A stretch of 64,000 nt of DNA, from positions 169,501-233,500 of the forward strand of contig NZ_JAMGBE010000004.1 in the NCBI RefSeq assembly GCF_023516575.1, in the 5' to 3' direction. This document shows, piece by piece, positions 29,323 through 41,242 of this stretch (position 1 is its first letter; each line of letters starts with the position of its first letter). The notes beneath the pieces are model-generated. The model was not told where the DNA came from, ran no database searches, and saw only the letters and a program-made list of their open reading frames with translations. The DNA is from Sphingomonas hankyongi (GTDB taxonomy: Bacteria; Pseudomonadota; Alphaproteobacteria; Sphingomonadales; Sphingomonadaceae). Both the position numbers and the translations under genes were made by a program.

Positions 29323-30036
29323 TCAACCAGCCGCGGCGAAGCGCGCCCAAAGCGGATTGACCAGCTTGGAGATAAACGCGCGATGCCGCTCGAGTTCCTC
29401 CGCGGCGGCAAGGTGGGGGCGAGCGGGTCGCGGCTCACGTATCGTCACGGGCCGGCTAGCGGCCGAAACCGCCACTTCACGAGTCTCTGCGACGAGCCCG
29501 AGGCCAATCTGCCGCCCACCTGTCAGCTCTACATAAACTTGAGCGAGAAGCTGGGCGTCCAGAAGCGCGCCGTGCTTCACGCGCTGGCTTCGGTCAATCC
29601 CGAAGCGCATGCATAATGCGTCGAGGCTGTGCTTCGCGCCGGGATGCCTGGACCGGGCAAGGCTGAGCGTATCGACCATCCGGCTCATGCACACCGCCGA
29701 GCGGCCACATCTCTCGAGCTCGAAATTCAGGAAACCAAAGTCGAAGCCCGCATTGTGGGCGACCAGCGGCGAATCCGCGATAAACTCGAGCAGCTCTTCG
29801 GCCTTTTCCGAGAAGCGCGGCTTGTCGGAAAGGAAAATAGCCGTGAGCCCATGGACGGCCTCTGCGTCGCTCGGCATTTCCCGCTCGGGATTGAAATAGG
29901 CATGGAAATGGCGGCCCGTTTCCACCCGGTTGAACATCTCCACACAGCCGATTTCGACCATGCGATCGCCGCCGATTGGGTTGAGCCCGGTGGTTTCCGT
30001 ATCGAAGACGATCTCTCGCACGCCGGTTTTATTCAC
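29323..30036 (-). CDS. dnaQ: DNA polymerase III epsilon subunit (3'-5' proofreading exonuclease)
   Basis: Proofreading subunit of the replicative polymerase. The 237-residue protein shows the DEDDh exonuclease motifs: ExoI FDTETTG, ExoII near VAHNAGFDFGFLN, and ExoIII HSLDALCMRFGI ... HGALLDAQLLAQVY. A GTG at 30036 overlaps the coaE stop by 8 bases; a second GTG at 30021 (VREIVFDTETTG) matches the usual family start and may be the true one. It is cotranscribed with maf and coaE next to the origin, a typical alphaproteobacterial order. Confidence 0.96.
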   Translation of the reverse strand: MNKTGVREIVFDTETTGLNPIGGDRMVEIGCVEMFNRVETGRHFHAYFNPEREMPSDAEAVHGLTAIFLSDKPRFSEKAEELLEFIADSPLVAHNAGFDFGFLNFELERCGRSAVCMSRMVDTLSLARSRHPGAKHSLDALCMRFGIDRSQRVKHGALLDAQLLAQVYVELTGGRQIGLGLVAETREVAVSAASRPVTIREPRPARPHLAAAEELERHRAFISKLVNPLWARFAAAG

Positions 30037-30622
30037 CTGCCTTGATTCCGAGACAAGTCAGAATGTCCCTGACCTGGGCCTCAGTTGTGGATAGGTCGGC
30101 GCCCGTATCCACTACAAAATCTGCCCGGCGCCGCTTCTCTTCATCTGGTATTTGACGGGCAAGGATGGCTTCGAGCTTATCTTCGGTCATGCCCGGCCGC
30201 GCTAAAACACGCTTGCGCTGAACTTCGGCAGGCGCCGAGACGACCACAATCTTGTCGAAGTCGCGGTCGCCGCCGGTTTCGAACAAGAGCGGGATCTCGA
30301 ATATGAGGGCTGGCGCGGTCCCATGCTCGGCGATGAAGGCCTCGCGAGCGTCTCGCACGGCTGGATGGACCATGCGTTCCAGTTTCTCGAGGCTGGCTGG
30401 ATCTTCCAGCACGACGCTCGCAAGCAGCTCGCGGTCGAGCATGCCGTCTCGTACGGTCCCTGGAAATTCTCGGCCGATCGGCTCGACCAGGGCCCCGCCC
30501 TGACCCTGCAGCTTCCTGACCTCCGCATCAGCGTCGAACACTGGAACGCCCGCTCGTTCGAATATGTGCGCCACGGTCGACTTGCCCATCCCGATCGAAC
30601 CGGTCAGCGCGATGCGTATCAT
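30029..30622 (-). CDS. coaE: Dephospho-CoA kinase
   Basis: Last step of coenzyme A synthesis, phosphorylating dephospho-CoA. The ATG at 30622 gives 197 residues beginning MIRIALTGSIGMGKST with the P-loop GSIGMGKS; the ORF upstream of it is not coding. The conserved GVPVFDADAEV block and the adenylate-kinase-like body follow. It overlaps maf by 4 bases and dnaQ by 8, so the three form a translationally coupled group. Confidence 0.96.
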   Translation of the reverse strand: MIRIALTGSIGMGKSTVAHIFERAGVPVFDADAEVRKLQGQGGALVEPIGREFPGTVRDGMLDRELLASVVLEDPASLEKLERMVHPAVRDAREAFIAEHGTAPALIFEIPLLFETGGDRDFDKIVVVSAPAEVQRKRVLARPGMTEDKLEAILARQIPDEEKRRRADFVVDTGADLSTTEAQVRDILTCLGIKAGE

Positions 30623-31200
30623 GACGAAATGATTTCCCGGTCGCGCAATGCGCCGAGCAAAGGAAGGAGCGGCATGCCGAGGATCGTGAAATAGTCGCCG
30701 TCTATCCGGTCGAACAATTGCACGCCGCGGCCCTCCAGGCGAAAGACTCCAACGCAATAGCCCACGTCCGGCCATTCCGCGTCCAGATAGTCCTGGATGA
30801 ATCGGTCCGACAGAGTCCGCACATGCAAGAGGGCGGATTCGACGTGGGTCCAAGCGACCGATCCCGCCTGCACAATCGCGACCGCGCTGGTCAACCGCAT
30901 GATGCGCGCGGAAAAGAAACGTAGATGCTCCATGGCCTGGTCACGATCCACCGGCTTGTCGAAGAGGCGGCCTTCGACGGAGACCACGCTGTCACTGCCG
31001 ATGATCCAATCCCTGTCATGCCTCTTGCTAACGTCGAGCGCCTTCACGGCCGCGAGCTGTTCCGCAATCTGCTCGGGATCATCGAGCTCGGCCTTGATGC
31101 GGCCTTCGTCGACGCTGGAAGGGTCAGCGGCATAAGCCACGCCCGCATGGTCGAGCATCGCGCGACGGATGGCACTCGAGGACGCCAGGATCAAAGCCAA
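30619..31200 (-). CDS. maf: Maf family nucleotide pyrophosphatase
   Basis: Hydrolyses non-canonical nucleoside triphosphates. The 193-residue protein has the Maf motifs: LILASSSAIRRAML at the start, DPSSVDEG, IGSDSVVSVEGRLFDKP, and a C-terminal DYFTILGMPLLPLL. It heads maf-coaE-dnaQ and lies at the left edge of the origin region, 292 bases from the hemE start on the opposite strand. This maf-origin-hemE order is a typical alphaproteobacterial oriC neighbourhood. Confidence 0.95.
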   Translation of the reverse strand: MALILASSSAIRRAMLDHAGVAYAADPSSVDEGRIKAELDDPEQIAEQLAAVKALDVSKRHDRDWIIGSDSVVSVEGRLFDKPVDRDQAMEHLRFFSARIMRLTSAVAIVQAGSVAWTHVESALLHVRTLSDRFIQDYLDAEWPDVGYCVGVFRLEGRGVQLFDRIDGDYFTILGMPLLPLLGALRDREIISS

Positions 31201-31210
31201 TGAACAACCC

Positions 31211-31219
31211 TGTGGAAAA
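31211..31219 (-). other. DnaA box-like 9-mer 1
   Basis: TGTGGAAAA, read on the minus strand as TTTTCCACA; one mismatch to TTATCCACA. Confidence 0.6.
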
Positions 31220-31301
31220 GCAGCGGTGCAACGCTAGCGCGACGATGAGGACAAGCTCAACGCTGAAACCATCGCCAACCGCTTCAGCTTTATACGTAGA
31301 T

Positions 31302-31310
31302 TCATCCACG
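31302..31310 (+). other. DnaA box-like 9-mer 2 (weak)
   Basis: TCATCCACG; two mismatches to TTATCCACA. Confidence 0.4.
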
Positions 31311-31332
31311 GGGACGAAATCGGCCCCCAGCC

Positions 31333-31341
31333 TGTGAATAA
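31333..31341 (-). other. DnaA box-like 9-mer 3
   Basis: TGTGAATAA, read on the minus strand as TTATTCACA; one mismatch to TTATCCACA. Confidence 0.6.
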
Positions 31342-31385
31342 CGGTGGCAGAACCGCACGACTCGCGAATCCGCCGAGAGCGGCCC

Positions 31386-31394
31386 TTGTCCACA
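31386..31394 (+). other. DnaA box-like 9-mer 4
   Basis: TTGTCCACA; one mismatch to TTATCCACA. Confidence 0.6.
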
Positions 31395-31492
31395 CCTTGT
31401 TGGCAAAATCGGGAGGTGCGCCTAAACCCCGCACTCCCCCGCGCAATCACATCATCAATCTTACCTATATATATAATAAAGGAGTGAAGAGG

Positions 31493-32551
31493 GTGGCCTC
31501 CGAGCCGGCACGCAGCATGACCGGAGCCGACAAGCCCTTGCTCGCCGTGCTGCGCGGCGAACGTCGTGATCCCACCCCGATGTGGATGATGCGTCAGGCC
31601 GGCCGCTACCTGCCCGAGTATCGCCACCTGCGAGAGGAGAAGGGCAGCTTCCTGAACCTGGTCTATGACAGCGATGCAGCCGCCGAGATCACGCTTCAGC
31701 CATTGCAGCGCTTCCCATCTCTCGACGCTGCTATCCTCTTTTCCGACATCCTGATCGTGCCTTTTGCAATCGGCCAGAACCTGACCTTCGTTCATGGCGA
31801 GGGACCACGCCTCACTCCGCCACTGACAAACGCCGCCCTTGGCGATCTACAACCCTTTCCCGCGCGGCTCGACCCGATCTCCGAAACCGTTCGCAAGGTA
31901 AAAGCGCGGCTGGATCCGGAAAAGACCCTGATCGGCTTTGCAGGCGCACCGTGGACCGTCGCGACCTACATGGTGGCAGGGCAAGGCAGCCGCGATCAGG
32001 GCGAGGCCCGCACGATGGCTTATGGCGATCCCGGCGCATTTGGAGCGATCATTGACCGTATCGCTGACCTCACGTTCGATTATCTGTCGTCTCAGATCGA
32101 AGCGGGCGCGGATGCCGTCCAGCTGTTCGATAGCTGGGCTGGGAGCCTGGCCCCGGCAGAGTTCGATCGGTGGGTCGTCGCGCCGACCCGCGGGCTCGTC
32201 TCTCGGCTGAAGGAAAAACATCCGGATGTGCCGGTGATCGGATTTCCGAAAGGCGCCGGCGGGAAACTTGTCGCTTATGCGCGGGAGACCGGGGTCGACG
32301 TTATCGGACTCGATGAAACCGTTGACCCCGATTGGGCCGGCAAGGAGCTGCCGCGCGGGATGCCGGTGCAGGGCAATCTCGATCCGCTTGCGCTACGCGC
32401 CGGCGGAGAGGCCCTGGAGGCAGCTGCCGCGACCATCCTTGACGCGCTTCGCGAGCGTCCGCACATCTTCAATCTCGGGCATGGCATCCTGCAGGATACG
32501 CCGCTTGCCCATGTCGAGCGGCTGATCGAACTGGTGAAGGGGGCGGGGTGA
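31493..32551 (+). CDS. hemE: Uroporphyrinogen decarboxylase
   Basis: Decarboxylates uroporphyrinogen III to coproporphyrinogen III in haem synthesis. The GTG at 31493 is chosen because AAAGGAG lies 8 bases upstream, giving 352 residues; an ATG at 31517 (MTGADKPLL) would also fit (344 residues). The family signature PMWMMRQAGRYLPEYRH is near the start, and GFAGAPWTVATYMVAG and the C-terminal FNLGHGILQDTP follow. It is next to the origin region, as in Caulobacter, and overlaps hemJ by four bases. Confidence 0.97.
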   Translation: MASEPARSMTGADKPLLAVLRGERRDPTPMWMMRQAGRYLPEYRHLREEKGSFLNLVYDSDAAAEITLQPLQRFPSLDAAILFSDILIVPFAIGQNLTFVHGEGPRLTPPLTNAALGDLQPFPARLDPISETVRKVKARLDPEKTLIGFAGAPWTVATYMVAGQGSRDQGEARTMAYGDPGAFGAIIDRIADLTFDYLSSQIEAGADAVQLFDSWAGSLAPAEFDRWVVAPTRGLVSRLKEKHPDVPVIGFPKGAGGKLVAYARETGVDVIGLDETVDPDWAGKELPRGMPVQGNLDPLALRAGGEALEAAAATILDALRERPHIFNLGHGILQDTPLAHVERLIELVKGAG

Positions 32552-34461: not shown

Positions 34462-35133
34462 ATGATCGGCTTTCCGGCCCTGAACTTCTCCGCGGTGTTC
34501 ACCGCGAGCGGGCTGTCCAAGCTGGGGCAAATCATCGTCGGCGACCTGACCATGGCCGGCGACAATGTCGTCATTATGGGATCGCTTGCCTCGGGCCTGC
34601 CCGAGAAGGACCGCCGGCGGGTCCTGATGCTAGGTGTCGGCATGGCTCTGGCGTTCTTGATAACCTTTGCGGTTATCGCGACCCAGCTGCTCAAGGTCAC
34701 GGGGCTGGTCTTCGCCGGAGGGCTCTTGCTCCTATGGGTGTCCTACAACATGTGGCGGGAGCTCCATCCGCGACAGCCTGTCATTTGCGACGATCCCGAC
34801 ACCCCCGAGATCGAAGGCCCGCCAAGGACGAAAACCTTCCTTCAGGCGGCGGTGCAAATCACGATCGCCGATCTCAGCATGAGCCTCGACAACGTGCTGC
34901 TCGTCGCGTCGATTGCCCGTGAGGAACCGGCGCTCCTTTTCATCGGCCTGACCTTTTCCGTGTTGTTCATGGGCTTGGCCGCCAATTACGTGGCGCGGCT
35001 GATTCAGCGGCACCATTGGATAAATTATATCGGCCTCGCGGTGATCCTATGGGTTGCGTGCAACATGATCTACGAGGGTTGGGTCGGTGGCGAGCATATT
35101 CTCGGCCTGAGGAGCGTGCTCGCCGGGACTTAA
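34462..35133 (+). CDS. TerC family integral membrane protein (1)
   Basis: A 223-residue TerC/Alx-type membrane protein with about seven transmembrane segments. The family motifs with acidic membrane residues are present: DLTMAGDNVVIMG near the N-terminus and DLSMSLDNVLLVA in the second half. TerC proteins are linked to metal (manganese) export or tellurite resistance; the ion is not set by the sequence. It follows rho by nine bases and is directly followed by a second TerC gene, so the pair sits inside the rho-mnmE interval. Confidence 0.9.
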   Translation: MIGFPALNFSAVFTASGLSKLGQIIVGDLTMAGDNVVIMGSLASGLPEKDRRRVLMLGVGMALAFLITFAVIATQLLKVTGLVFAGGLLLLWVSYNMWRELHPRQPVICDDPDTPEIEGPPRTKTFLQAAVQITIADLSMSLDNVLLVASIAREEPALLFIGLTFSVLFMGLAANYVARLIQRHHWINYIGLAVILWVACNMIYEGWVGGEHILGLRSVLAGT

Positions 35134-35190
35134 GTGGAACAAATGGGCCGCCCTTCGCTTGAGCAGGGTGACCGCAAAGAGGGGGAATCC

Positions 35191-35928
35191 GTGATCGACG
35201 CTCTGATGGTGATGGCGGCCGAATCGAGCGGCTTCGGCGGTCCGGCGGAGATCTGGAAGTCCATTATCAGGGACTTTTCCAGCCTCGATCAGCCGGGGGC
35301 CCTAACGGCATTCTTCCAGGTATTGTTGATCGACCTGGTTCTCGCCGGTGACAATGCCATCGTCGTGGGCGCGCTCGCGGCCGGACTTCCCGCCGACCAG
35401 CGTCGGAAGGTAATTATGATCGGTGTCCTCGCAGCGCTCGTGCTGCGGGTCGCCTTCGCTCTCCTCGTTACGCAATTGCTCCAGATCGTCGGGCTCATTC
35501 TCGCGGGCGGGCTGCTGCTTTTGTGGGTGGCGTGGAAGATGTGGCGCGAGCTTCGCAAGCCGGAAGAATGTTCACCGGGATCTGAAGAGATCGTGGGGGA
35601 CGAGCGCTCCGGGCTCTATGCGGCCAAGAGCTTCGCGGGCGCGGCCTGGGGCGTGGCCATCGCCGACATCAGCATGAGCCTGGACAATGTGCTGGCCGTC
35701 GCTGGGGCGGCGCGTGAGCACCCTGGCATACTGATCGTCGGGCTGGTCTTCGCGGTCGCGCTCATGGGCGTCGCTGCGAACCTCATCGCTCGCTACATTG
35801 AGCGGTATCGCTGGATCGCCTGGCTCGGCCTGGTCGTGATCCTGTGGGTCGCGACAAAGATGATCTGGGACGGCTATCATGACGTCGCGCCAGTGCTTGG
35901 ATGGCCTGCAGCGCATGAGGTGATTTGA
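35191..35928 (+). CDS. TerC family integral membrane protein (2)
   Basis: A second TerC protein, 245 residues from the GTG at 35191, chosen because GAGGGGGA lies 5 bases upstream; the open frame begins at 35134, which would add 19 hydrophilic residues. The motifs DLVLAGDNAIVVGALAAGLP and DISMSLDNVLAVAGAAREHP are present, clearly homologous to gene 1 but with a hydrophilic loop (residues about 135-155) between the helix bundles. The stop overlaps the TTG start of mnmE. The tandem pair may form one transporter or act on different ions; this is inference. Confidence 0.9.
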   Translation: MIDALMVMAAESSGFGGPAEIWKSIIRDFSSLDQPGALTAFFQVLLIDLVLAGDNAIVVGALAAGLPADQRRKVIMIGVLAALVLRVAFALLVTQLLQIVGLILAGGLLLLWVAWKMWRELRKPEECSPGSEEIVGDERSGLYAAKSFAGAAWGVAIADISMSLDNVLAVAGAAREHPGILIVGLVFAVALMGVAANLIARYIERYRWIAWLGLVVILWVATKMIWDGYHDVAPVLGWPAAHEVI

Positions 35929-37248: not shown

Positions 37249-37264
37249 TGTTTCACGTGAAACA
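37249..37264. other. parS site 1
   Basis: TGTTTCACGTGAAACA, a perfect 16-base palindrome identical to the bacterial parS consensus, upstream of the mnmG ATG. Confidence 0.95.
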
Positions 37265-38969: not shown

Positions 38970-39616
38970 TTGGTCAGCTGGAACAGGCTGCTGCCCGTCC
39001 TGTTTCACGTGAAACATTCGACAAGATCCGTTCCTACGTGAATTTGCTGCAGGCCGAGAGCAGGCGGCAAAACCTGATTTCTGCGACTTCCGCGGAGCAG
39101 CTATGGGAACGCCATATCCTTGATTCAGCCCAGCTGGTGCGGTTCGAGCCCCAACCCCGCGCTTCGTGGGCCGACATCGGTTCGGGGGCGGGCCTTCCCG
39201 GGATCGTTATCGCGTGTCTGGTGGAGGGGCGAGTGACGCTTATCGAGCCTCGCAAGCTTCGGGCGGAATTTCTCGCACAAGTTGTCTCGCAATTGGATCT
39301 GAACGCGGTGGTTTTGGCGACTAGGGCGGAAAAGGCGTCCGGCCAATTTGACGTGATCACGGGGCGTGCGGTCGCGCGCCTCTCTGATTTCCTCCAATTG
39401 TCCGCACATCTGTCCACAAGAAAGAGCGTTTGGGCGCTTCCCAAGGGCCGAAGCGCCCAGTTGGAACTGGTCGAGGCTCAGCGAACATGGCAAGGTACGT
39501 TCCACGTGGAACAAAGTGTTACCGACCCCGGATCTTACATCGTGGTCGGGACGGGGGTGAGGGCGAAGCAGAATGATCCGCATCGCGGTAGCCAATCAAA
39601 AAGGCGGGGTCGGTAA
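38966..39616 (+). CDS. rsmG: 16S rRNA (guanine-527-N7) methyltransferase RsmG (GidB)
   Basis: Methylates G527 of 16S rRNA. The 216-residue protein has the SAM-binding motif [16 protein letters not shown] and the family N-terminal [11 protein letters not shown]; its start overlaps the mnmG stop as ATGA. The sequence VSRET is itself the translation of parS site 2 (39001-39016), and parS-like site 3 (39498-39513) lies near its 3' end. The last 44 bases overlap the parA start in a different frame; residues after about 200 are probably unnecessary. It lies in the standard mnmG-rsmG-parA-parB order. Confidence 0.93.
39001..39016. other. parS site 2
   Basis: TGTTTCACGTGAAACA, identical to the parS consensus, inside rsmG; it encodes the V-S-R-E-T stretch of the protein. 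Confidence 0.95.
39498..39513. other. parS-like site 3 (variant)
   Basis: CGTTCCACGTGGAACA near the end of rsmG. GTTCCACGTGGAAC is a perfect 14-base palindrome; the first base and the two inner positions differ from the consensus. Confidence 0.75.
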
Positions 39617-40355
39617 AACGACGACTGCGATCAACCTTGCGACTGCGCTCGCTGCGATCGGTTCACGGGTATTGCTCATCGACCTTGATCCCCAGGGCAA
39701 TGCATCGACCGGCGTCGGGATCAGCCCGGCTCAGCGCGTCCGCTCGAGTTACGACGTCCTTATCGGAAACTCTTCAATAGTGGACGCAGCACTAGCAACA
39801 CGCGTGCCGCGGCTCGACTTGCTGCCTGCGACCGTCGATCTGTCGGGGGCGGAAGTGGAGATGGTCGCTCTCGAGGACCGAGCGCATCGCCTGGACAATG
39901 CGATCGCGGACACGCCCCCTGGGCGATGGGATATTTGCCTGATCGATTGTCCGCCCTCACTGGGCCTGCTGACAGTGAACGCGCTTGTCGCTGCACGTCA
40001 TCTCCTGGTCCCGCTGCAATGCGAGTTCTTCGCCTTGGAGGGACTCAGCCAGCTGCTTCAGACCGTCGATCGGATCCGTCAGGCGTTCAACCCGAGCCTG
40101 GCGATTCTCGGTGTAGCGCTGACAATGTTCGATCGCCGGAACAACCTTTCCAGCGCGGTGGCGGAGGACGTTCGGGCCTGCCTGGGGCAGGCGGTCTTCG
40201 ATACCATCGTTCCTCGGAACGTGCGCCTGTCGGAGGCCCCGAGCCACGGACTGCCGGCACTTATCTACGATCTGCGCTGCCCAGGCTCCGAAGCCTACCT
40301 TAGGCTTGCAAGAGAATTGATCGGGCGCCTCCCGGCGCTCGCGGAGGCCGCATGA
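39573..40355 (+). CDS. parA: Chromosome partitioning ATPase ParA
   Basis: Walker-type ATPase that moves the ParB-parS complex along the nucleoid. The 260-residue protein begins [17 protein letters not shown], with the deviant Walker A KGGVGKTT (10-17), followed by LLIDLDPQGNAST and the ICLIDCPPSLGLLTVNAL Walker B region. Length is normal for chromosomal ParA (Soj). It starts 44 bases inside rsmG and overlaps parB by four bases (ATGA). Three parS-like sites lie within about 2.3 kb upstream. Confidence 0.97.
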   Translation: MIRIAVANQKGGVGKTTTAINLATALAAIGSRVLLIDLDPQGNASTGVGISPAQRVRSSYDVLIGNSSIVDAALATRVPRLDLLPATVDLSGAEVEMVALEDRAHRLDNAIADTPPGRWDICLIDCPPSLGLLTVNALVAARHLLVPLQCEFFALEGLSQLLQTVDRIRQAFNPSLAILGVALTMFDRRNNLSSAVAEDVRACLGQAVFDTIVPRNVRLSEAPSHGLPALIYDLRCPGSEAYLRLARELIGRLPALAEAA

Positions 40356-41242
40356 GCGCCGATCGCCCCGCCAAGGGGCTTGGAATGGGATTGTCCGCGC
40401 TTCTTGGAGAGGGGGGACGGCCGCCGGCCCCTTCAGGAGAGGCGGTTGGGAGCGGGGTCCGGGAGATCGAGCTGACCCGCATTCGGCCCAACCCCAACCA
40501 GCCGCGCCAACAGTTCAGCGAAGAATCTATTGCGGAGCTTGCCGATTCGATCGGGCAACGCGGTGTGCTTCAACCAATCCTGCTGCGGCCCGACGGGGAG
40601 GGGTATCAGATCGTTGCGGGCGAGCGGCGTTGGCGGGCGGCCCAGCGCGCTCGGCTTCACAAGATTCCCGCGATCATCCGCGACGTCGACGAGGGCACAA
40701 CCGCGGAGCTCGCTCTGATCGAGAACATCCAGCGGGAAGACCTCAACGCGATCGAGGAAGCCGAGGGCTACCGGCAGCTGGTCGAACATTATGGTCATAC
40801 CCAGGAAGATCTCGCCAAGATCGTGCACAAGTCGCGAAGCCATGTCGCCAACTTGTTGAGACTATTGGATCTTCCAGACTTCGTAAAACAATCGCTAGTG
40901 CGAGGCGATATCAGTATGGGTCATGCGAGGGCCGTTGCGACGGCTCCGGATCCGGATGCTCTCACGCAGGAAGTGATCGAAAAAGGCTTGTCCGTCCGCC
41001 AAACCGAGGCCAAGGCACGAAACGCCAAGGGGCCGGGCTACGACATTGCGCGCGGTAGCGCCCGGCAGGCCAAGCAGAACATGGACGCCGACCTGGCTGC
41101 GCTGGAACGGCAGCTCGGCGACATGTTAGGCCTGAAGGTTCATGTGGCTCACAAGGGGCAGGGCGGGCAGGTCACACTCCATTATTCGAGCCTCGATCAA
41201 CTCGACATGATTTGCCAGCGCCTGTCAGGCGAGCCAATCTGA
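40352..41242 (+). CDS. parB: Chromosome partitioning protein ParB
   Basis: CTP-dependent DNA-binding protein that loads at parS. The 296-residue protein has the N-terminal clamp domain with RPNPNQPRQQFSEESIAEL and the CTPase box GERRWRAAQRARL, the helix-turn-helix DNA-binding domain (TQEDLAKIVHKSRSHVANLL), and a C-terminal dimerisation domain. It follows parA with an ATGA overlap and is convergent with holA, with an 8-base gap. The nearby parS sites support its role as the centromere-binding protein. Confidence 0.97.
   Translation: MSADRPAKGLGMGLSALLGEGGRPPAPSGEAVGSGVREIELTRIRPNPNQPRQQFSEESIAELADSIGQRGVLQPILLRPDGEGYQIVAGERRWRAAQRARLHKIPAIIRDVDEGTTAELALIENIQREDLNAIEEAEGYRQLVEHYGHTQEDLAKIVHKSRSHVANLLRLLDLPDFVKQSLVRGDISMGHARAVATAPDPDALTQEVIEKGLSVRQTEAKARNAKGPGYDIARGSARQAKQNMDADLAALERQLGDMLGLKVHVAHKGQGGQVTLHYSSLDQLDMICQRLSGEPI

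Follow-up and report, generated by a model that had tools for sequence, protein, structure and literature searches.

A probable hemE-linked chromosomal replication origin in a Sphingomicrobium-like sphingomonad

Introduction

The locus studied here, a gene-free gap between a maf-like gene and hemE in a Sphingomicrobium-like sphingomonad, raises the question of whether chromosome replication starts there. An oriC near hemE is predicted in DoriC for most Sphingomonadaceae, as reported in PMC4741004, where the hemE-linked origin of Sphingopyxis granuli TFA is described with several conserved DnaA boxes and a putative unwinding element. The origin of Caulobacter crescentus, Cori, is outlined in PMC1914354 as bounded by hemE and a COG1806 gene and as containing five DnaA boxes, five CtrA sites, one IHF site and an AT-rich region of about 40 bp. 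A loose linkage of dnaA and oriC at the level of the order has been published (PMC8116508), and our search for literature on a dnaA gene far from oriC found nothing closer than that account. A limited search for literature on the replication origin of Sphingomicrobium found none.

Materials and Methods

The window, meaning the whole 64-kb stretch of DNA that was analysed, spans positions 169501-233500 of C4, a contig of 276,085 bases, and the genome comprises 2.55 Mb in 8 contigs. Conservation was assessed in 30 same-genus copies of the locus (the own copy and 29 relatives, the best 30 among 37 genomes of the genus that matched hemE) and in 71 other aligned copies, taken from the best 80 of 581 loci. 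Nine of these 80 were left out: L055, whose upstream DNA was too short; L074, in which neither a box nor a GANTC motif was seen; and, after inspection, L119, L120, L121, L123, L124, L125 and L126, which are mostly from outside the family by title. Two box cores are present in L120. Among the 71 copies kept are L047, a Sphingomicrobium MAG with a contig exactly as long as that of the same-genus copy L023, and two records whose titles name Bacillus and Microvirga (L076 and L095).

DnaA boxes were scored by mismatches to TTATCCACA, and contig C4 was scanned whole for box clusters. parS was searched for in 61 genomes (the own genome, 36 of the same genus and 24 of the order). Because the skew of C4 is weak, three single-contig same-genus relatives (G030, G018 and G020) were also sampled, with 20 evenly spaced 20-kb stretches per genome. 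The generic sigma-70 promoter scan requires T as the final base of the -10 hexamer.

Results

The gap of 292 bases contains no genes, in agreement with the stretch of about 290 bases that the preliminary description had placed before hemE, and the genes on both sides are directed away from it as described there: maf, coaE, dnaQ and the two long frames beyond them point leftward, and the genes from hemE through parB point rightward (Table 1). The start of hemE was taken as the GTG at 31493, with AAGGAG at 31479-31484, and an alternative in-frame ATG lies at 31517. All matches of the maf-like gene were to Maf models, with TIGR00172 scoring 115.5 bits (cut-off, 117.15) and the other models further under theirs. 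Genes identified past hemE include hemJ (a profile match below the curated cut-off), rho, mnmG, rsmG, parA and parB. Two adjoining frames at 34462-35928 resemble tandem TerC-type membrane proteins, judging by their look. The closest named HemE relative among the matches listed, from which the own or very near genomes are possibly excluded, was that of a Sphingomicrobium MAG (75% identity). In 29 of the 30 same-genus copies the distance between maf and the HemE anchor is 370-424 bases; the remaining copy is cut by a contig end.

Table 1. Features of the candidate origin and its surroundings (window coordinates).
Feature	Position	Strand	Basis
dnaQ, DNA polymerase III epsilon	29323-30036	-	TIGR01406, above cut-off
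coaE, dephospho-CoA kinase	30029-30622	-	TIGR00152, above cut-off
maf-like nucleotide pyrophosphatase	30619-31200	-	Maf models
Candidate oriC, gene-free gap maf/hemE	31201-31492 (292 bases)		Gene map, skew, conserved upstream sequence, AT-rich tract
DnaA box A, TTTTCCACA	31211-31219	-	One mismatch to TTATCCACA
GANTC (CcrM-type methylation) site	31299-31303		Motif scan
DnaA box B, TCATCCACG	31302-31310	+	Two mismatches to TTATCCACA
DnaA box C, TTATTCACA	31333-31341	-	One mismatch to TTATCCACA
GANTC site, CGACTC in most same-genus copies	31359-31363		Motif scan, alignment
GANTC site	31366-31370		Motif scan
Box-like TTGTCCACA	31386-31394	+	One mismatch to TTATCCACA
TTGGCA-N17-TA element, TGTTGGCAA...TAAACC	31398-31428	+	Conservation, -35/-10 spacing
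Site at which many other sphingomonads have the DUE-proximal DnaA box, missing here	31432-31441	+	Alignment
AT-rich tract, candidate DNA-unwinding element, also hemE leader	31445-31480		28/35 A/T
hemE, uroporphyrinogen decarboxylase	31493-32551	+	TIGR01464, above cut-off
parS inside mnmG at its very start	37249-37264		Exact 16-mer
parS inside rsmG near its start	39001-39016		Exact 16-mer
parA	39573-40355	+	ParA/MinD-type ATPase models, all below cut-offs
parB	40352-41242	+	TIGR00180, above cut-off

parABS had been placed about 6 kb away, which agrees with the exact parS sites at 37249 and 39001, the only ones in the own genome, and with parA and parB at 39573-41242. Across the 61 genomes searched, 65 exact parS sites were detected in 38, with 23 genomes carrying no exact site. 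Of these sites, 55 (in 32 genomes) share a contig with hemE, and all of them lie within 2.1-10.4 kb of it; the remaining 10, in 6 genomes, sit on a different contig from the one carrying the main hemE match. A third parS-like copy with three mismatches was seen at 39498, near the end of rsmG.

The position of the skew minimum had been set beforehand as the test on which the proposed origin could fail. Over the 276-kb contig C4 the cumulative GC-skew minimum fell at 31,888, about 400 bases inside hemE, so that the proposal withstood this test at contig scale, and the minimum of the keto (G+T vs A+C) sum fell at 31,928. The skew of C4 amounts to about -0.005 on the left and +0.005 on the right over 75 kb. 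In all three sampled relatives the skew right of hemE exceeded that left of it (combined P = 8e-4; G030, P = 0.011; G018, P = 0.006; G020, P = 0.17, not significant alone), and hemE ranked 1st, 4th and 3rd among 20 possible breakpoints. A switch from negative to positive skew is thus present at hemE on the own contig, with two of the three sampled relatives significant alone.

dnaA is located on contig C3 of the own genome (DnaA domain, C3:604448-604927). In all 14 single-contig same-genus genomes, dnaA is separated from hemE by 28-47% of the chromosome and thus lies toward the half of the chromosome far from the origin.

Four DnaA-box-like 9-mers had been proposed in the gap. All are present with the mismatches first given, and those at 31211, 31302 and 31333 are conserved. 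A box A with at most one mismatch was found in 29 of the 30 same-genus copies, the other being cut off, and in 28 of 29 in the alignment test. At least seven of nine letters of box B were retained in 23/30 copies compared to 1.2% of shuffles, and of box C in 19/30 compared to 0.7%. The site at 31386 reached at least seven letters in just one of the 30 copies (the own one) and in none of the 71 others, so three of the four proposed boxes stand, and TTGTCCACA is probably a chance match, to judge from the alignments.

With up to one mismatch allowed, the window holds 7 sites where 3.2 are expected, and 2 of 100 shuffles reached 7. On C4 there are 16 such sites, and within that contig the only triple within 400 bases is at this locus, in a cluster that also includes a site at 31581 inside hemE. 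At the box density of C4, a simple Poisson estimate puts three boxes in 292 bases at about 1e-6 for a given place and about 1e-3 for the whole contig. Upstream of hemE the 30 copies carried 1.45 boxes with at most one mismatch per 300 bases, compared to 0.07 in the flanks. The boxes therefore form a cluster that is above chance and conserved at three of four positions. Genome-wide such boxes were barely more frequent than in a reversed control (189 vs 147), and exact TTATCCACA was absent from C4, with 10 copies on other contigs.

The AT-rich tract noted directly before hemE (31446-31480) was confirmed; 28/35 A/T is attained at two places on C4, this tract being one. By its base composition it is a candidate unwinding stretch. 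A DUE-proximal box just before the tract had at least seven of nine letters in 30 of the 71 other copies, compared to 0/30 in the same genus, where the mean match was 4.03 letters against 3.93 in shuffles. An alignment-free test restricted to copies bearing the TTGGCA element described below gave a weaker result for the loss of this box than the aligned test (0/30 vs 6/33 with at least seven letters; P = 0.07 on scores). A DnaA-trio, taken as three or more NAN triplets next to a DnaA box, was looked for beside the tract and rejected, the longest run in the window being two. Runs of at least three occur in 17/30 copies, but the genus mean of 2.83 is close to the 2.61 of shuffles.

GANTC sites, three of which lie in the own gap, averaged 4.0 per 292 bases in the 30 copies compared to 0.67 in the flanks, a sixfold enrichment. 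The window contained no CtrA site (TTAA-N7-TTAA) with zero or one mismatch; a CtrA-like two-mismatch palindrome lies at 31290-31304. At least one two-mismatch CtrA-like site was present in 19/30 same-genus copies, with a mean of 1.87 per region compared to 0.23 per 292 bases of the own contig, a comparison not controlled for the AT-rich tract. For IHF, no site with at most one mismatch to the motif was found in the window; IHF-like sites by the same motif occurred at least once in 6/30 copies (mean 0.2 per region compared to 0.035 per 292 bases of the own contig).

The best conserved element of the gap, TTGGCA-N17-TA (31400-31424), was not mentioned in the preliminary description. It was present in 30/30 same-genus copies and 33/71 others and is better conserved than the DnaA boxes. 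In the alignment of the 30 copies all other invariant runs are shorter than TGTTGGCAA at 31398-31406, and the exact form of the element with TAAACC is found a single time in the 2.55-Mb genome. Because of its fixed 17-base spacing, the element is probably the hemE promoter (-35/-10). The sigma-70 scan of 31150-31560 reported no promoter; TAAACC lacks the final T that the scan requires. In the 71 others, most of which are sphingomonads by title, the DUE-proximal box was found in 6/33 with the element and 24/38 without it (P = 2e-4, uncorrected for kinship), a tendency toward mutual exclusion.

Discussion

The skew minimum, the position of parS, the conserved boxes, the AT-rich tract and the conserved upstream sequence agree, and we therefore read the gap as the chromosomal oriC of this Sphingomicrobium-like sphingomonad, with DnaA opening the AT-rich tract and ParABS segregating the copies, at a probability of roughly 0.93. 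Its proposal as the best candidate origin in the window is supported by the same lines of evidence. DnaA would bind boxes A, B and C and open the tract before hemE, where the helicase would be loaded, and two forks would depart in opposite directions. ParABS, 6-10 kb away, would move the new chromosome copies apart. As to timing, GANTC methylation may mark old versus newly copied DNA, and the putative promoter within the origin (31400-31428) would drive hemE.

If replication instead started beside dnaA, the hemE gap would be no more than a promoter region containing some stray boxes. An exact TTATCCACA at C3:605742, which is upstream of the DnaA domain by about 0.8 kb, fits such an origin. The 3.5-kb dnaA locus also holds three boxes with one mismatch or none, but these are scattered over 2.3 kb. 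In Novosphingobium PP1Y dnaA is reported close to a predicted hemE origin (PMC4059872), so dnaA and a hemE origin can adjoin elsewhere. Against a start at dnaA, no skew switch was seen there in G030, G018 or G020, in which the nearest samples on both sides are negative, and the exact parS sites lie by hemE. We regard an origin beside dnaA as extremely improbable.

The conserved pieces might also make up a control region of hemE and maf, with the origin itself a few kilobases off, for instance closer to parS. The best conserved piece has promoter spacing, and an AT-rich leader ahead of a start codon is common, both of which are in keeping with a control region. The skew minimum of C4, however, is at 31,888 and not at parS, the gap is enriched in GANTC and boxes over 30 copies, the cluster includes the sole close triple of the contig, and three conserved DnaA boxes would be needless for a promoter. 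A separate origin nearby is thus very unlikely, and an oriC in the gap itself remains our reading.

The gap shares with the hemE-linked oriC of Sphingomonadaceae, as described in the published accounts cited above, its position near hemE, a conserved gene order, DnaA boxes and a putative unwinding element, and differs from that of many other sphingomonads in having no DUE-proximal box in this genus. With Cori, as outlined in PMC1914354, it has in common hemE on one side, an AT-rich region and DnaA boxes. The maf-coaE-dnaQ/hemE setting had been equated with the Caulobacter origin position, which is right for the hemE flank; the second flank is maf-like here and a COG1806 gene in Caulobacter (PMC1914354). 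The window also contains no clear CtrA or IHF site of the kinds listed for Cori, and dnaA is far from the origin in this genome and genus. Since the hemE side, boxes and AT-rich region are shared but the second flank and clear CtrA and IHF sites are not, we group the locus with the hemE-linked origins of sphingomonads and not as a copy of Cori. Compared to the basal unwinding system of DnaA box and DnaA-trio, as set out in PMC8287927, boxes and an AT-rich stretch are shared, whereas no box adjoins the tract and no trio run exceeds chance.

The TTGGCA-N17-TAAnCC sequence might, beyond a promoter role, also act as an origin-specific element for binding or transcription activation that replaces the DUE-proximal box in Sphingomicrobium and part of Sphingomonas; the tendency toward mutual exclusion noted above would fit such a role, which we consider unlikely. 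The element is singled out here as a conserved piece that deserves a test.

Origins linked to hemE have already been published for Sphingomonadaceae, and the present find is sound but ordinary. Three of the four boxes first proposed are now seen to be under constraint, and the origin is placed for Sphingomicrobium, otherwise confirming a known pattern.
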